NCBI GenBank assembly: GCA_015060735.1
Contig: SUXX01000025.1
Location: 1 to 34,895 of the forward strand
From: Bacteroides sp.
Lineage (GTDB): Bacteria; Bacteroidota; Bacteroidia; Bacteroidales; Bacteroidaceae
DNA: 34,895 bases
Direction: 5' to 3'
The notes under the pieces are model-generated. The model saw only the letters and a program-made list of their open reading frames with translations. It searched no databases and had not been told where the DNA came from. The position numbers and the translations under genes were made by a program. Shown here one piece after another: positions 18,629 through 26,709 of this stretch; positions within the stretch are counted from its first letter, which is position 1, and each line of letters starts with the position of its first letter.

Positions 18629-20281
18629 ATGGAAAATCAGATTTTTGTTAATGAATTTACTTGCAACTTCAATCTTAGAGAACCAAAAGCGAAGAAGCCG
18701 ACCAATATCTATTTCATTGTTTGCATAGAGGGTAAGCAAATGAAATTCTCAACAGGAGTAAAAATCTACCCCGAGCAGTGGAACAAAAAGAAACAGGAAG
18801 CATACATAAGCTTTCGCTTATCGGAACTTGACAATCAAAACAATGCTATCGTAAATGCAAAAATAACTTCCATGAGGAAGGATTTTATGGATTATAAAAC
18901 CTATCTTTGTGAAAATCCTAAAGAGTTAATTTATAGGATACCTTTGTTGAAAAGATTTATATATAAAGATAGCATGAAAAAGAAAGCAAGCATTTCAGCC
19001 ATAGCAATGATGAGAAAAATCATAGAAAGTAGACAAAGTAAAGAAAGTACAAAGTCTCAATACAACAACACTATAGACAAATTTGAAAGATACCTTAAAG
19101 AGAACAACATTGAGGATGACTTTAAAAATATGAATCTCAAAACAATCAATGGTTATCAACAATATCTTCTGGATGAAAACACTAAGCCTGTAACCATTGG
19201 AAATATCATTAGAGGAACATTGTTTCCTATATTGAGAAAAGCTGATAAGAATATTGATATGCCGTTTGATTGGCGTACAAGCAATTTGGATAGTTTTGAG
19301 TTGGTAAGAGACAATTCAAATAAGGAAATGGCTGATAACAAGAAAGTAACGTTGTCAGAAGAACAAGTTATGCAAATTCATGCTTTTGAGATAACGAAAG
19401 AAAGCATTAAGGATATTTACAAGCAAGAAATCCAAGATGTTCATCTCCAACGATTCCAAGAAATCAAAGATATGTTTGTGTTTCAATGTTTGGTAGGACA
19501 AAGAATATCAGACCTTCCAAAATTCTTCAATGGAGAAAATAATATTGATACAGAGCATAATACCATTTCAATTATTCAGAAAAAGACAGGAACAAGAGCT
19601 TATATTCCAATACACCCTATTACACAGGAATTGCTGAATAAGTACAATGGGCATATTTTGGAATATTATAGTGATAAAAATACAACCACAAACGTTTATC
19701 TAAGAAAGTTACTTAAACAAATTGGTTTCAATGAAGAAATTACTTATGAAGAAAACGGCAAGCTTATAACAGAACCATTATACGAATTGATACATACTCA
19801 CACAGCACGCCATACATTCGTTACTATCATGTGCAGAAAAGGTGTTCCCAAAGACATGGTAATATTGGCTACAGGGCATGAAGATACAAAGATGATTGAT
19901 GAAGTTTATTCACACCTCACCCATAAGGACAAGTCCAAAAAAGTGGCAGTAGCCTTTGAAAAGGCTATCAATCCAGAAAAAGTTGAAGCCTCAACAGAGA
20001 GTATCAATGCTGACAAAATTTTGGAATTGATAAACAAAGGAATTGCAGAAGCACTTGCACCTTTGAACAAGAAGTTGGAAGATGTCAAGGAAGTAACAAA
20101 CCACATCAAAGCCAACAAAGCAACTATTAAAGAAGAAAACGTAAATTTAATAACAGGCATGGTAATCTCTTTGTTACAAGATGACATACCCTTGTTTGCC
20201 ATAAATAATATGCTTGATACCACAGGCTTGCTTTACTCAACAAGTCATGTGAAAACAGGTGTTTATTACCCCATTAAATAG
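18629..20281 (+). CDS. int: Tyrosine-recombinase integrase of the element
   Basis: A 550-residue site-specific recombinase that would integrate and excise the element. The N-terminal 110 residues look like the arm-binding domain of Bacteroidetes integrases (LREPKAKKPTNIYFIVCIEGKQ, STGVKIYPEQWNKK). A core-binding SAM-like domain spans about 120-235. The catalytic domain has R292 (VGQRISDL), K318/K319 (QKKTGTR), H391-x-x-R394 (HTARHTF), H417 (ATGHED) and nucleophile Y427 (EVYSHL); the set is complete. The C-terminus is about 100 residues longer than usual, with a possible coiled stretch (LAPLNKKLEDVKEVTNHIKANK). It lies 128 bases inside the left attachment repeat, reads inward and stops with TAG. 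Confidence 0.94.
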   Translation: MENQIFVNEFTCNFNLREPKAKKPTNIYFIVCIEGKQMKFSTGVKIYPEQWNKKKQEAYISFRLSELDNQNNAIVNAKITSMRKDFMDYKTYLCENPKELIYRIPLLKRFIYKDSMKKKASISAIAMMRKIIESRQSKESTKSQYNNTIDKFERYLKENNIEDDFKNMNLKTINGYQQYLLDENTKPVTIGNIIRGTLFPILRKADKNIDMPFDWRTSNLDSFELVRDNSNKEMADNKKVTLSEEQVMQIHAFEITKESIKDIYKQEIQDVHLQRFQEIKDMFVFQCLVGQRISDLPKFFNGENNIDTEHNTISIIQKKTGTRAYIPIHPITQELLNKYNGHILEYYSDKNTTTNVYLRKLLKQIGFNEEITYEENGKLITEPLYELIHTHTARHTFVTIMCRKGVPKDMVILATGHEDTKMIDEVYSHLTHKDKSKKVAVAFEKAINPEKVEASTESINADKILELINKGIAEALAPLNKKLEDVKEVTNHIKANKATIKEENVNLITGMVISLLQDDIPLFAINNMLDTTGLLYSTSHVKTGVYYPIK

Positions 20282-22461: not shown

Positions 22462-23145
22462 ATGATAAGAGAAGCAAAAGGGAATATGTACAAGTTTATC
22501 ACTCATACATGGAATCCCATACAAGGAAAGTGCTTGCATGATTGTGCATACTGCTATATGAAACGAAGCCCACAATATAGCAAGCCTATATTTATTGAAT
22601 CTGAAATGACTACACCATTAAATGGCAGAGATGTTTTTATTGGCAGTTCCACTGATGTGTTTGCAGAAAACATCCCGTCTGAATGGATAAATAGGACACT
22701 GAACCATTGTTTGGAAGAATACGAAAAGGGAAATTGCAGTATGTTCCTGTTACAATCAAAGAATCCAAAACGGTTTCTGGAGTTCATCAACCATCCTATT
22801 ATGAAAAGATGTGTGTTGTGTACCACCATTGAAACTAATCGTTTTTATCCAGACTTCATGCGTAATGCTCCTAAGATTGAGGAACGAGTGGAAGCTATGG
22901 AAGATGTTGCCAAACAAGGCATAGCCACAATGGTTACAGCAGAACCACTTATGCAATTTGACTTAGAAACCATGCTTGATTACTTGAAAAGGTGTCAGCC
23001 AAAAGTCGTGAACATAGGAAGGAATACCCGTAGAGAAATTGAATTGCCAGAGCCAACAAAAGAAGAAGTTCAACAGCTAATATTGGGGCTGAAAGAGTTT
23101 ACAAAAGTTCATATCAAAGAAAACGGTAAGTTCTGGTTGGCGTAA
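22462..23145 (+). CDS. DUF5131-type (phage Gp37/Gp68-like) radical-SAM-like protein
   Basis: A 227-residue protein with HTWNPIQGKC at the start and Cys24-x3-Cys28-x2-Cys31 (CLHDCAYC), the radical-SAM [4Fe-4S]/SAM cluster pattern. The WNP..GC..C..CY context fits the DUF5131 family found in phages and mobile elements. Later conserved-looking segments are VFIGSSTDVFAE, FLLQSKNPKRFLEF, CTTIETNRFYPD and MVTAEPLMQFD, consistent with a partial TIM-barrel. The reaction is unknown; relatives are often beside ParB-like proteins, as here. It follows the ParB-like gene's terminator and has its own terminator, so it may be transcribed separately. Confidence 0.75.
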   Translation: MIREAKGNMYKFITHTWNPIQGKCLHDCAYCYMKRSPQYSKPIFIESEMTTPLNGRDVFIGSSTDVFAENIPSEWINRTLNHCLEEYEKGNCSMFLLQSKNPKRFLEFINHPIMKRCVLCTTIETNRFYPDFMRNAPKIEERVEAMEDVAKQGIATMVTAEPLMQFDLETMLDYLKRCQPKVVNIGRNTRREIELPEPTKEEVQQLILGLKEFTKVHIKENGKFWLA

Positions 23146-23576: not shown

Positions 23577-24596
23577 ATGAACGAAATTATTACAATGCCA
23601 ACAGGTTTGGCAAAGAGATTCAATTTGGGAGAATACGCAGAAGAAGCTATCGTTGTGGAAGATACTATCATCAGAACTCCCAACAATTTGCATTTCATTG
23701 AAGCAAATACTTTGGAAGTGGACTTGCAGCACCTCAAAGCTGACTGCATCACTCCTGTTTTTGCAAAGGACAATGAACTGACCATTAACCACGCAGCATT
23801 TGTGCAGACCATACAGGAAGCTGCACAGGACTTTTTCAGAGGTGAAGTTGTGGACGATGCAGCAATCAGAGTGAGCCACATTATCAAAGGTAGAATCCCA
23901 GAAGCCTTGCATAAGCCAGCCAATCAGTTGTTGGAATCAGACAAGACTTTATACTATGAACGTTGTGCATTCTCTATTGATGTGCCTACCATTTGGCAAG
24001 ACGTGAACGGCAATCGTCTGAACCTCTCTATTGTGGGAGTTCGTGCGTACAATCTTCAATCGTTGTACACCAAGAAATCACCAGAGCTTTTCAAATTGGC
24101 TATTGGATTCAAGAACCAAGTTTGTTGCAATCTCTGTCTTTTCACTGACGGGTACAAGGAAGATTTAAGGGTAAGCAGCACCACTGAACTTTACAAGGCA
24201 GCTTTGGAGTTGTTCAATCAGTTCAACATTGCCAAGCAGATTCACTTGATGCAGCAACTTGGCAACACAAGCATGACAGAACACCAATTCTGTACATTCT
24301 TGGGTAAGTCCAGACTATATCAATGCTTGTCAACCAATGCACAGAAGCATTTGCCAAGATTGTTGCTGACTGATACGCAAGTCAATTTGGTTGCAAAATC
24401 CTATATCAAGGATGAGAACTTTGGTGGCACAGGTGGAGAATTGAACATGTGGAAGTTCTACAACTTGCTTACAGGAGCAAACAAGAGCAGCTATATTGAT
24501 AGCTTCTTGGATAGAAGTTTGAACGCATCTGAAATTGCGTTAGGCATAAATTCTGCCTTGCATGGTGCTGAACAATATAAATGGTTCATTGAATAA
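23577..24596 (+). CDS. DUF3871-like protein
   Basis: A 339-residue protein resembling the Bacteroidetes DUF3871 family, which is common on plasmids, phages and conjugative elements. The diagnostic stretch is FIEANTLEVDLQHLKADCITPVFAKDNELTI (about residues 39-69). Other features are RCAFSIDVPTI, the conserved-looking NLSIVGVRAYN, and GFKNQVCCNLCLFTDGYKEDLRVSS with clustered cysteines. No signal peptide or membrane segment is present. The function is unknown; the family pattern suggests a DNA- or host-interaction role for mobile elements. It stands alone between a long AT-rich gap and a strong terminator. Confidence 0.75.
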   Translation: MNEIITMPTGLAKRFNLGEYAEEAIVVEDTIIRTPNNLHFIEANTLEVDLQHLKADCITPVFAKDNELTINHAAFVQTIQEAAQDFFRGEVVDDAAIRVSHIIKGRIPEALHKPANQLLESDKTLYYERCAFSIDVPTIWQDVNGNRLNLSIVGVRAYNLQSLYTKKSPELFKLAIGFKNQVCCNLCLFTDGYKEDLRVSSTTELYKAALELFNQFNIAKQIHLMQQLGNTSMTEHQFCTFLGKSRLYQCLSTNAQKHLPRLLLTDTQVNLVAKSYIKDENFGGTGGELNMWKFYNLLTGANKSSYIDSFLDRSLNASEIALGINSALHGAEQYKWFIE

Positions 24597-24620
24597 ATGG
24601 GCTAATATTGATTGGAGAGA

Positions 24621-24656
24621 GAAAGGGCATCACTTGTTGGTGTCCTTTCTTTGTTT
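24621..24656 (+). terminator. Terminator after the DUF3871-like gene
   Basis: A 12-bp stem with two G-T pairs (arms 24621-24632 and 24638-24649) and a 5-base loop is followed by TTTGTTT. Confidence 0.85.
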
Positions 24657-24723
24657 ACTTTCACTTTTACATAAAAGAGCAAGTAAGCATATACTGAAAA
24701 TCAACGACTTACATTTAATGAGC

Positions 24724-24731
24724 TAATTTTG
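24724..24731 (+). promoter_or_regulatory. -7 box for the small recombinase gene
   Basis: TAATTTTG matches TAnnTTTG and would give a leader of about 35-40 bases before the ATG at 24772. No good -33 element is seen. Confidence 0.45.
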
Positions 24732-24771
24732 CTTTCACTTACATAGAAAAACCAACAAAAATGAAACAAAT

Positions 24772-25359
24772 ATGAGTTTGAAGAACAGCTATACAACAAG
24801 TGATTATCTCCAATGGGATATTGCTACATCATTAGTGAGGAAATTATACAGGGATAAGAATTATAGGATAAGTTTGCTTATAGGGTGTGGCATATTCTTT
24901 GGCTTACGCATTTCTGACATGTTACGTCTTAATTGGAATATGCTTCTGAATAAGGAAGCCAAGTTTGTACTGCTTGAAAAGAAAACAGGGAAACGTAGAG
25001 AGGTGAAGATAAATAAGGAATTTCAGAAGCATATCAAAGATTGCTACCAAGCATTACACATTAACAACATGGATGAGCCTTGTTTTCTATCCACAAAGGG
25101 CAAGACTTATTCTGTACAATGGATAAATCTTGTTTTCAAGGAACTGAAATACAGATATGGATTGAAGATAAACCATTTCTCTACTCATTCACTTAGAAAG
25201 ACGTTTGGCAGAAAGGTGTTTGAATCTTCTGATAATGCTGAACTTGCTTTGGTTAAGCTCATGGAGTTGTTCAACCATTCAAGTGTAACTATTACCAAGA
25301 GATATTTAGGATTGAAACAGGAAGAAATCTTACAAACATACGATTGCTTGAATTTCTGA
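24772..25359 (+). CDS. Minimal tyrosine recombinase (catalytic domain plus short N-terminus)
   Basis: Only 195 residues, yet the catalytic set is complete: R46 (GLRISDML), K71 (EKKTGKR), H139-x-x-R142 (HSLRKTF), H169 (FNHSSVT) and nucleophile Y178 (KRYLGL). There is no arm-binding domain, and almost none of the usual core-binding domain. It is therefore a second recombinase in the element besides the integrase. Small recombinases of this kind often invert or resolve DNA locally (fimbrial or surface-protein phase variation, dimer resolution). Here the gene ends just before a promoter, a structured RNA and a surface lipoprotein gene, so control of that lipoprotein is possible; this is inference. 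Similar TTTAC/TTTTACATAA sequences lie on both sides of the gene. Confidence 0.85.
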   Translation: MSLKNSYTTSDYLQWDIATSLVRKLYRDKNYRISLLIGCGIFFGLRISDMLRLNWNMLLNKEAKFVLLEKKTGKRREVKINKEFQKHIKDCYQALHINNMDEPCFLSTKGKTYSVQWINLVFKELKYRYGLKINHFSTHSLRKTFGRKVFESSDNAELALVKLMELFNHSSVTITKRYLGLKQEEILQTYDCLNF

Positions 25360-25382
25360 TTTATACTTTGCAAAGTTGTTTC

Positions 25383-25413
25383 TTGCTTTACTGAAACCTT
25401 TTACATAATTTTG
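25383..25413 (+). promoter_or_regulatory. Consensus Bacteroidota promoter for the structured RNA/lipoprotein transcript
   Basis: TTG at 25383-25385, a 20-base spacer and TAATTTTG at 25406-25413 together match both elements of the Bacteroidota vegetative promoter. A 12-base palindrome (ACTTTGCAAAGT, 25365-25376) lies just upstream and could be an operator or recombination site. Confidence 0.7.
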
Positions 25414-25419
25414 CATTGT

Positions 25420-25652
25420 TCTTAGGAACAGACATTTTAGTAAAAGGGCGTTTAGCAATATTATCCCTCATTGGAATCTGGACAATTCTAACCGTAAGGA
25501 TAATGGGCAAGAAACGTCCACGTCTGTGGTATCTATATACCCTTAATAGGGCATATTATATCATTTGGCGTGGGCTTTGCTTATTATTTACGGTTTGGCA
25601 GTCCAGAGCCACAATGAGATAATAAGCTAAAGTTTCCACGCCTTGTTTTTTA
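25420..25652 (+). ncRNA. Highly structured RNA of about 230 nt, free RNA or lipoprotein leader
   Basis: The following can pair. ACAGAC (25428-25433) pairs with GTCTGT (25522-25527) and encloses GGGCGTTT (25446-25453) with AAACGTCC (25512-25519). Inside these, ATTATCC (25460-25466) pairs with GGATAAT (25498-25504) and TTGGAAT (25471-25477) with ATTCTAA (25485-25491). A second hairpin is CCCT-TAAT-AGGG at 25540-25551. A third is GGCGTGG (25567-25573) with CCACGCC (25636-25642), extended by CTTT/AAAG and GCTTATT/AATAAGC, followed by TTGTTTTTT. Promoter and terminator frame it exactly. A 68-codon TTG-start frame overlaps but does not look like protein. It is not one of the RNAs I can name (not tmRNA, RNase P or SRP RNA). 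No separate promoter is seen between it and the lipoprotein ATG at 25699. Confidence 0.6.
25567..25652 (+). terminator. Terminator-like long hairpin in front of the lipoprotein gene
   Basis: An 18-bp interrupted stem (7+4+7 pairs) carries an inner TGGC/GCCA hairpin and is followed by a T-run, 46 bases before the lipoprotein start. AGTTTCCA at 25631-25638 can alternatively pair with TGGAAACT at 25668-25675, which would break the base of this hairpin, an arrangement typical of attenuators. Confidence 0.6.
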
Positions 25653-25698
25653 TAATGGCTTTTATCTGGAAACTGAAAAGCAATAATACTTTTTAATT

Positions 25699-26709
25699 AT
25701 GAAGACATTACGAATGATTGGAATGGCTTTACTTGCTGTTCTTATGTGTGTAAACTTCAACTCATGTTCAAATGATGAAAATGAAATTCTGCAGCAAGAT
25801 GAAGAAATCATGGTTTCACTAGGACTTGGAGGTGAAATTAGTGTATCTGAATCCCCATTAAGTAGAGCAGAGGCCGAAGTCAAGCCTGATTTATATGGTA
25901 TTCAAATATATTCATTACCAAATTCTTCAGAAAGTAGTACAACAGAATATACGCCATACGCATATGGATTATTTGACGATATTTCCAATATTAAAATATC
26001 ATTAAACAAAGGATATAAATATAAAGTTGCAGTTCTTTTAATAAAAGATGGGAAAAATAAGGTCCATTTTAAAGACCCTGAATATGATACACCATTTGAT
26101 ATAGCTCTAGAGAACAAATTCATATTAAATACAACTGAAAAGATTCACTTTGACGCGGGAATTTCGGTTAGTGGAAGTACTATAAATAGTAGTCAACAAT
26201 TTTTTTATGCTGAAGCTGAAAAATATTATGGCGAAACAACTGATTTTATACCTTCTGAGGAGAATAATAATATTGATATATATATGAAAAAAATGTTTTT
26301 TGGTGGTAAGTTTGTCGCTGAAAATTTGACAGAAGGAACCCTTACGATTAAATTTGATAACATTGTTGCACCACAAATTAACATTGTCCCTTCTCAAAAA
26401 ACCGCTACAAGAATATTTTCTATAAGAAATTGTACAACTATATATTATAAAGATGATTCAAGTGCTATCTGTACTCTTTCCGTACAAATTATTTGGACAA
26501 AAGCAGATGGTGCAGAGATTCCATTGGGAACTCATAGCATAAAATTTAAACGAAATAAAATGCATACAATTACAATAAAAATAGCAGATATAACTTCATC
26601 ACCAGGGTTAGATTTAGAATTAGAAGATACTGAAATGAGTGAAGAAGGAAGTACAACCATTGAAAATGGAGAAATTGTTGACACAAATATTGGAACAGAA
26701 GGTGAATAA
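25699..26709 (+). CDS. Surface lipoprotein, fimbrillin-like in style, function unknown
   Basis: A 336-residue protein with a lipoprotein signal (MKTLRMIGMALLAVLMCVNF, lipidated Cys at residue 23 in NSCSNDE). This is a signal-peptide type seen on many Bacteroides surface lipoproteins. The mature part starts acidic, then shows beta-rich segments (LYGIQIYSLP, YAYGLFDDISNIKISLNKGYKYKVAVLL) resembling fimbrillin/Mfa-like folds, and ends in an acidic tail (LDLELEDTEMSEEGS). The resemblance is weak and the family is not certain. The gene is unusually AT-rich even for the element, suggesting separate acquisition. It is preceded by the structured RNA and terminator-like hairpin and followed by its own terminator. 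Confidence 0.7.
   Translation: MKTLRMIGMALLAVLMCVNFNSCSNDENEILQQDEEIMVSLGLGGEISVSESPLSRAEAEVKPDLYGIQIYSLPNSSESSTTEYTPYAYGLFDDISNIKISLNKGYKYKVAVLLIKDGKNKVHFKDPEYDTPFDIALENKFILNTTEKIHFDAGISVSGSTINSSQQFFYAEAEKYYGETTDFIPSEENNNIDIYMKKMFFGGKFVAENLTEGTLTIKFDNIVAPQINIVPSQKTATRIFSIRNCTTIYYKDDSSAICTLSVQIIWTKADGAEIPLGTHSIKFKRNKMHTITIKIADITSSPGLDLELEDTEMSEEGSTTIENGEIVDTNIGTEGE

Follow-up and report, generated by a model that had tools for sequence, protein, structure and literature searches.

The window, a 34,895-nt stretch of a Bacteroides sp. genome (GCA_015060735.1, contig SUXX01000025.1), carries an apparent island extending from about 18.6 to 28.8 kb (its ends are approximate), which comprises an integrase gene, a DUF5131 gene, a DUF3871 gene, a small tyrosine recombinase gene, the structured RNA described here, and a lipoprotein gene (Table 1). 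The DUF3871 gene and then the small recombinase gene lie directly upstream of the RNA (23577-25359); in circular records of Bacteroides finegoldii (L023:5867-7808), a serine resolvase replaces the tyrosine recombinase at this place. The DUF5131 or radical-SAM-like protein (22462-23145) shows weak PADLOC matches to PDC-M41B (E 4e-6) and PDC-M30B (E 1e-4), both of which are candidate-defence models.

Table 1. Features of the candidate leader RNA and its neighbours in the window; "rod" and "two-hairpin" name the two alternative folds.
Feature	Positions	Strand	Basis
Integrase gene of the apparent island	18629-20281		
Small tyrosine recombinase gene, 195 aa; neighbour outside the RNA	24772-25359	+	PF00589, E 4e-21
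Promoter: TTGC (25383-25386), 19 nt, TAATTTTG (TAnnTTTG; 25406-25413)	25383-25413	+	Sequence motif
Candidate leader RNA	25417-25681	+	Covariance-model family without a match in Rfam 15
P0, 5' hairpin TGTTC/GAACA, then GACAT linker	25417-25430	+	Predicted fold; by eye in relatives
Strand A (GGGCGTTTA); rod partner D, two-hairpin partner B	25446-25454	+	Covariation
TATTATCC (rod 25618-25624; two-hairpin 25498-25505) and CTCATTG (rod only, 25611-25617)	25459-25473	+	
Left kissing loop: mini-stem GAAT/ATTC around K (TCTGGAC, 25477-25483)	25473-25489	+	Covariation
AACCGTAA (rod only, 25588-25595) and GGATAATGGGCAA (rod about 25577-25588; two-hairpin 25459-25466)	25490-25510	+	
Strand B; rod partner C, two-hairpin partner A	25511-25525	+	B:C z -13.7
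Apical hairpin, variable; much shorter in copies read outside the order	25526-25564	+	
Strand C (GGCGTGGGC and CTTTGCTTATTA); rod: B and its 5' side; two-hairpin: D	25565-25587	+	
Right kissing loop: GGC/GCC around K' (GTCCAGA, 25601-25607)	25596-25610	+	K' as for K
Strand D; rod partner A, two-hairpin partner C (terminator-like stem); bulge AGTTTCCA (25631-25638)	25622-25643	+	
T-tract directly after D	25643-25651	+	Conserved
Hairpin E (GCTTTT/AAAAGC; arms 25658-25663 with 25676-25681), loop TGGAAACT (25667-25674)	25658-25681	+	
Lipoprotein gene, 336 aa, led by the leader RNA	25699-26709	+	Open reading frame; without a Pfam match

The + strand of positions 25410-25699 has a computed folding energy of -97.5 kcal/mol, as against a mean of -61.8 (s.d. 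4.5) in 200 dinucleotide shuffles (z -8.0); the - strand of the same region also stands out (z -6.45), as expected because the region is a long inverted repeat. The initial annotation had described an apparently undescribed RNA with at least five nested helices, and had called for a covariance search and a comparison with known families, including 6S and Bacteroidales-1. More than five helices are found, the search recovered homologs with compensatory changes in these helices, and no family of Rfam 15 matches the window at its gathering threshold, the families covered including 6S-type RNAs, Bacteroidales-1, Bacteroides-1, and GibS. At E <=10, six sub-threshold matches (E 2 to 9.3) fall within 25200-25900, all to unrelated families. 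The loci of 16 relatives yielded only a tRNA (L119) and GibS (L123) upon comparison with Rfam, both away from the RNA. This GibS sRNA (RF04182; L123:6710-6839) is situated upstream of one copy of the leader, at a distance of no more than 500 nt. In the open-licence literature that we searched, mostly at the abstract level, we found no description of the RNA. As judged by sequence comparison, the candidate leader RNA is a new, widespread family without a match in Rfam 15.

The relatives were collected with a covariance model, R1, which was built on 21 rows and encodes the rod structure only. Its rows are the 22 places found by blastn, minus two near-duplicates (L005 and L017) and one of 49 nt only (L016), plus L023 and L024; in their alignment, 92.8% of the cells are paired, with 146 double-change cells versus 48 in shuffles. 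The blastn relatives themselves come from 15 of the 61 genomes of the genus sample (own genome included) and two B. finegoldii circular records. Matches to R1 at E <=0.001 are present in 54/61 genus, 214/301 family, 89/295 order, and 12/296 phylum genomes or, counting only genomes of good quality, in 33/37, 119/168, 77/243, and 11/291, respectively. These tallies include the genome of the window each time, use family, order, and phylum samples that partly overlap the genus sample, and are rough in that the filters were strict, only some candidates per genome were scored, and weak matches were partly checked. Many genomes hold several copies, with eight matches in one genome of the genus sample. 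After removal of mirror-strand, second, or cut matches, 63 of 79 (15 mirror-strand rows and a second match in L096 being dropped), 78 of 86, and 39 of 42 rows were kept, and these 180 rows reduce to 139 non-redundant members at 90% identity; the 102-row alignment used for covariation draws on 100 of these 139 sources, chosen by hand.

An exact scan of named genomes for the K motif found at least 118 stretches. Among the matches listed, 77 of 80 titles name Bacteroidota taxa (Muribaculaceae, Prevotellaceae, Parabacteroides, Barnesiella, and others), the rest being two metagenome-assembled genomes labelled Clostridium/Clostridia (L150 and L185; perhaps misbinned) and one "uncultured bacterium" (L204). 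The motif is also found on two viral contigs. We read 16 weak matches, including seven from outside the order, which have a short apical loop and otherwise the same arms, K, and U-tract. An ATG-initiated open reading frame (ORF) follows within 70 nt in three of these seven (L257, L260, and L271) and only at 227-228 nt in two, and none follows in the remaining two. The short versions of the leader in L257 and L271 precede proteins (95 and 85 aa) that are alike by eye.

The members share a common plan, in which a TAnnTTTG promoter is followed by a 5' hairpin, a fold of about 210 nt, a U-tract, hairpin E, and a start codon. TAnnTTTG is the Bacteroides -7 consensus, and 130 of 138 relatives have it in the 105 nt upstream, where mononucleotide shuffles predict 10.5. 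Of these 130, only 65 (a raw count) also have a loose -33-like TT[TG][GC] 15-27 nt before it. The promoter evidence thus consists of motif searches, with the starts presumed. Hairpin P0 and its GACAT linker recur in the printed relatives, as seen by eye. A second TAnnTTTG between the RNA and the gene occurs at chance frequency (6/136 versus 5.9 expected from mononucleotide shuffles), and the motif is absent from 25652-25698 in the window, which agrees with the earlier remark that the lipoprotein gene has no other visible promoter. On the downstream side, 98 of 139 members have the first ATG of an ORF of at least 60 aa 10-69 nt after the end of the model, and 124 have it within 300 nt; the antisense control has an ORF within 300 nt in 35 of 139 and no short-distance peak. 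The other 15 members are without such an ATG ORF within 300 nt, a count that includes contig ends. The ATG lies at 20-70 nt in 55 of 63 loci examined for context, and in the window the start codon comes 18 nt after hairpin E. As far as motif searches can tell, the RNA would therefore have the layout of an attenuator, with a promoter upstream, a same-strand gene downstream, and no second promoter between them.

The core of the RNA has two alternative sets of pairings. The rod joins A to D and B to C and has H2, K, and H3 in between; the two-hairpin fold instead joins A to B and C to D, so that the folds are mutually exclusive. Both hairpin loops of the latter carry K sequences, and hence the two loops can kiss. 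We scored covariation as a z value for matched segments against segments permuted among the 102 aligned members. The strongest values belong to the rod-only helices H3 outer (z -37.7) and H2 inner (z -34.3), with H2 outer of the rod at -7.4 and h3a_in:C2 at -9.8. Two inner pairings that exist in the two-hairpin fold and not in the rod, h2a_out:h3a_in and C2:Dup, score -16.2 and -14.0, and C:D of the two-hairpin fold scores -15.6. Strand A covaries with both of its partners (A:D z -7.6 and A:B z -12.7, or -5.5 and -7.3 among members below 70% identity). K is paired in 99.7-100% of cells, with double changes at all seven pairs (z -15). The left mini-stem likewise covaries (z -14.3), and the right one (P4R) is nearly invariant, its covariation being weak or absent (z -2.2, -1.1, and -0.8). 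In the cores of L083 and L024, an additional GCAA-loop hairpin (CTCTTAGCAATAAGAG) directly follows the GTCCAGA of the right loop. Of nine control pairings, eight fall between -3.4 (K5:h2b_in) and +1.8, and A:Ereg, at +3.4, is worse than permuted. The signal persists in divergent subsets: among 41 members below 70% identity, the rod-only helices score -20 and -23 and the two-hairpin-only pairings -10 and -10; among 14 members below 60% identity, the corresponding values are -9 and -11 and -4.2 and -4.6, with H2 outer weak in this set (z -1.8).

Counts of double changes point the same way, with 1389 double-change cells for the rod (471 in shuffles and 226-314 in slid versions) and 609 for the two-hairpin fold (206 and 108-162, respectively); none of 500 shuffles, which do not keep relatedness, reaches the count of either fold. 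Insertions that match between C and D (CTATTTG/CAAATAG in L011, L018, and L021) fit only the C:D pairing, and each half of the RNA, folded alone, is more stable than its mononucleotide shuffles (mean z -3.4 and -5.5). By computed energy, the rod is favoured over the two-hairpin fold (mean -78.5 versus -64.8 kcal/mol, the two-hairpin parts being summed and kissing pairs not counted). While the evidence for the rod gains from selection and alignment on R1, that for the two-hairpin pairings and for the D:E pairing described below was not built in, because the model encodes only the rod. The pairings are not independent, as each of the four end strands is complementary to two others and, for h2a_out, h3a_in, C2, and Dup, any three pairings imply the fourth. 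Nevertheless, the two rod pairings alone cannot yield the two-hairpin ones, and thus at least one two-hairpin pairing is kept in its own right; the rod-only helices are unaffected by this dependence. Both of the mutually exclusive folds are hence conserved, as in an attenuator. Further, the rod pairs include 793 G-U cells versus 109 A-C cells, an excess that identifies the family as an RNA of the + strand. We saw no invariant ligand pocket, and even K, the most conserved segment, covaries.

In 92 of 102 members, at least 6 of the 10 nt that follow D are T (mean 7.1 T), as against 4.4% of control windows 20-60 nt downstream. The C:D stem followed by this U-tract would give the two-hairpin fold a terminator-like end. 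A generic terminator scan flagged nothing on the + strand; it accepts loops of 3-8 nt only, and the C:D hairpin is too long for this limit. Hairpin E, for which the inverted-repeat listing allows longer arms, was considered as a terminator and rejected, as the scan did not flag it and no conserved T-run follows it in the printed downstream stretches, as read by eye. The RNA had been said to be bracketed exactly by a consensus promoter and a long terminator hairpin: the promoter at 25406-25413 holds, and the supposed terminator, which is hairpin E, does not.

The loop of hairpin E is complementary to the bulge of strand D in 80 of 102 members versus 28.0 expected from mononucleotide shuffles, and the bulge covaries with the E region at z -13.0 (-8.4 below 70% identity and -4.3 in the 14-member set). 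The letters on the two sides change together, as in GTTCCC/GGGAAC, GTTTCCA/TGGAAAC in the window, GGCTC/GAGCC in another clade, and GACGTCC/GGACGC in L134. An alternative pairing of 25631-25638 had been predicted earlier and is indeed conserved, with its partner at 25667-25674, one base off the 25668-25675 then proposed. Since E lies beyond the U-tract, D:E can act only in read-through RNA and not on termination at the tract; the conserved pairing with a hairpin placed after the tract also implies that the element extends to about 25681. The initial annotation had named a lack of covariation in the helices, or a separate promoter immediately before 25699, as grounds for abandoning its proposal; the helices covary, and no separate promoter motif stands at that place. 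Taken as a whole, its observation is partly confirmed, and its interpretation as an attenuator or riboswitch-like leader, or else a free RNA, appears to be supported, the comparative evidence favouring the leader or attenuator.

The genes behind the leader are diverse. The 63 context loci, of which L117-L136 were hand-picked among weaker matches, include 60 with a downstream ORF, and the 60 proteins, some of them near-identical, fall into 40 clusters. They comprise proteins with BspA-type leucine-rich repeats, lipocalin-like and fimbrillin-like proteins, WG repeats, zinc ribbons, YbjQ, a glycosyltransferase, a UDG-like protein, and many without a family. By a rough scan for N-terminal patterns, 15 of the 60 are lipoprotein-like, 24 signal- or membrane-like, and 21 neither. 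Defence genes were considered as the cargo and rejected, as none of 47 downstream proteins matches PADLOC at E <=1e-5. A homolog of the small tyrosine recombinase or the serine resolvase is found in 22 of the 63 stretches, a DUF3871 homolog in 19, and both in 17. The lipoproteins behind the leader in the window (25699), L024, L077, L093, and L104 share a MKTLRFIGM-like N-terminus and otherwise differ. Promoter, leader, and signal peptide look as if they were moving together as one cassette. In four instances, two leaders stand in tandem a few hundred bases apart (L273:432-951, L274:899-1459, L275:471-1256, and L276:444-1191), each copy having its own TAnnTTTG-like promoter and the first having no ORF of at least 60 aa directly after it. 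By eye, the first copy keeps hairpin E in L275 and L276, and none is seen in L273 and L274.

The RNA is thus probably a cis-acting leader of some kind, and we lean towards the more specific reading that it is a bistable one, most likely a transcription attenuator. Transcription would begin at the TAnnTTTG promoter. In the two-hairpin fold, the GC-rich C:D stem stands directly before the U-tract, and RNA polymerase should therefore stop there, releasing a short RNA. In the rod, B would take C and A would take D, such that no C:D stem forms and transcription would continue into the gene. The read-through RNA would include hairpin E, whose loop could pair with the D bulge; as D:E shares bases with C:D, it should favour the rod and, given the short distance from E to the start codon in the window, may also influence translation. 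Because A:B can form first during synthesis, the off state is likely to be the default, and a signal favouring B:C would turn the gene on. This signal is probably a general state of the cell or its envelope rather than the gene product, since unrelated genes share the leader. As the rod is computed to be more stable, we infer that any effect of the two-hairpin fold would be kinetic, exerted while the RNA is being synthesised; by the same token, this fold may be a mere intermediate. Moreover, the closing helix of the rod, A:D, also adjoins the U-tract and might itself terminate transcription.

Several other readings have to be weighed against the bistable leader. The best of these, which we nonetheless regard as unlikely, is a free trans-acting small RNA of about 230 nt that ends at the U-tract, with the gene being expressed by leaky read-through or from elsewhere. 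A promoter motif and a U-tract do bracket the RNA in nearly all tested copies, many genomes hold several copies, and the tandem first copies without an adjacent ORF are the best support for a self-contained RNA; yet most copies have a same-strand ORF nearby, no second promoter motif above chance precedes the gene, and the conserved D:E pairing reaches past the U-tract into a part that the terminated RNA would not contain. Only slightly less probable is an unconditional 5' UTR element that protects the mRNA or enhances its translation, with the two-hairpin fold as a folding intermediate and the U-tract as a spacer. While the greater stability of the rod, the unrelatedness of the led genes, and the placement of the fold beside the start codon by D:E would all suit such an element, it leaves unexplained the conserved two-hairpin pairings and the position of the U-tract exactly after a GC stem. 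A site acting at the DNA level is very improbable. If the element were, for instance, a folded or cruciform recombination site at which the neighbouring recombinase swaps cargo genes, this would account for the mutually complementary arms A, B, C, and D, the recombinase or resolvase homologs, and the varying cargo. However, the G-U excess points to a + strand RNA, promoter motif and U-tract are kept, two unrelated recombinase families occupy the same place, and 41 of the 63 loci have no homolog of either in the stretch searched. A ribosome-sensing leader-peptide attenuator of the trp type, though it shares the A-B-C-D logic, is disfavoured most of all, as ATG ORFs of at least five codons between the presumed start and B are scattered in their starts and depleted (68 of 130 loci versus 101.3 expected from mononucleotide shuffles, in a scan for ATG starts).

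To our knowledge, few cis-regulatory RNAs have been described in Bacteroidota. The present family adds an undescribed leader that, with its own promoter, precedes many unrelated Bacteroidales genes and is probably their on/off switch. Because covariation is available for two competing folds at once, the switching mechanism is directly testable, and because the leader precedes surface and accessory genes, mostly of unknown function, its signal would tell when these are used. A further proposition, which we advance tentatively as somewhat doubtful, is that the bistable leader is a portable switch that brings its own promoter, extends past Bacteroidales to other members of the class, and places unrelated and often horizontally moved genes under one signal. 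If so, it would define an RNA-based regulon that arose as genes were captured behind the leader, and a new sensing class would stand behind it, be it a ligand, an RNA-binding protein, or a polymerase-modifying RNA.

A comparison with known systems places the leader RNA in perspective. 6S RNA is rod-like, and this shape is shared by the leader RNA and 6S-type RNAs such as 6S-flavo. Identity with 6S-flavo or Bacteroidales-1 was rejected, as neither gave a cmscan match at threshold or is among the six sub-threshold matches. Bacteroidales-1 is given as an RNA of Bacteroidales and both it and 6S as Rfam families (PMC2864571). GibS and FopS are described as Bacteroides sRNAs that are multicopy in Bacteroidaceae and have canonical promoters and a terminator hairpin, FopS consisting of a single-stranded 5' stretch and one terminator hairpin; the same paper mentions a six-member sRNA family of B. 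thetaiotaomicron that adjoins transposases and invertases (PMC11697453). The leader RNA shares with GibS/FopS the multiple copies in Bacteroidaceae, the Bacteroides promoter, and a terminator-like hairpin. Identity with them was likewise rejected: in its predicted fold, the RNA of the window is nearly all paired, the folded stretch having only 7 nt free at the 5' end, and it has no match to RF04182.

Riboswitches and protein-binding leaders are large structured 5' leaders that serve as terminator platforms and sometimes occur in tandem. The leader RNA resembles them in its size and structure, its terminator-like end, and its occasional tandem copies, but differs in that no invariant binding core is recognised and the downstream genes are without an evident common pathway. 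An analogy of logic may be drawn with trp-type attenuators, in which hairpins 1:2 and 3:4 are mutually exclusive with 2:3. Both have four segments, with A:B and C:D before a U-tract opposed to B:C, a promoter upstream, and a same-strand gene downstream. In contrast to the trp-type systems, the leader RNA shows no sign of a leader peptide, its A also pairs with D, its hairpin loops can kiss, its D is coupled to a hairpin before the start codon, and it is found before unrelated genes in many genomes across the order and in some outside it.
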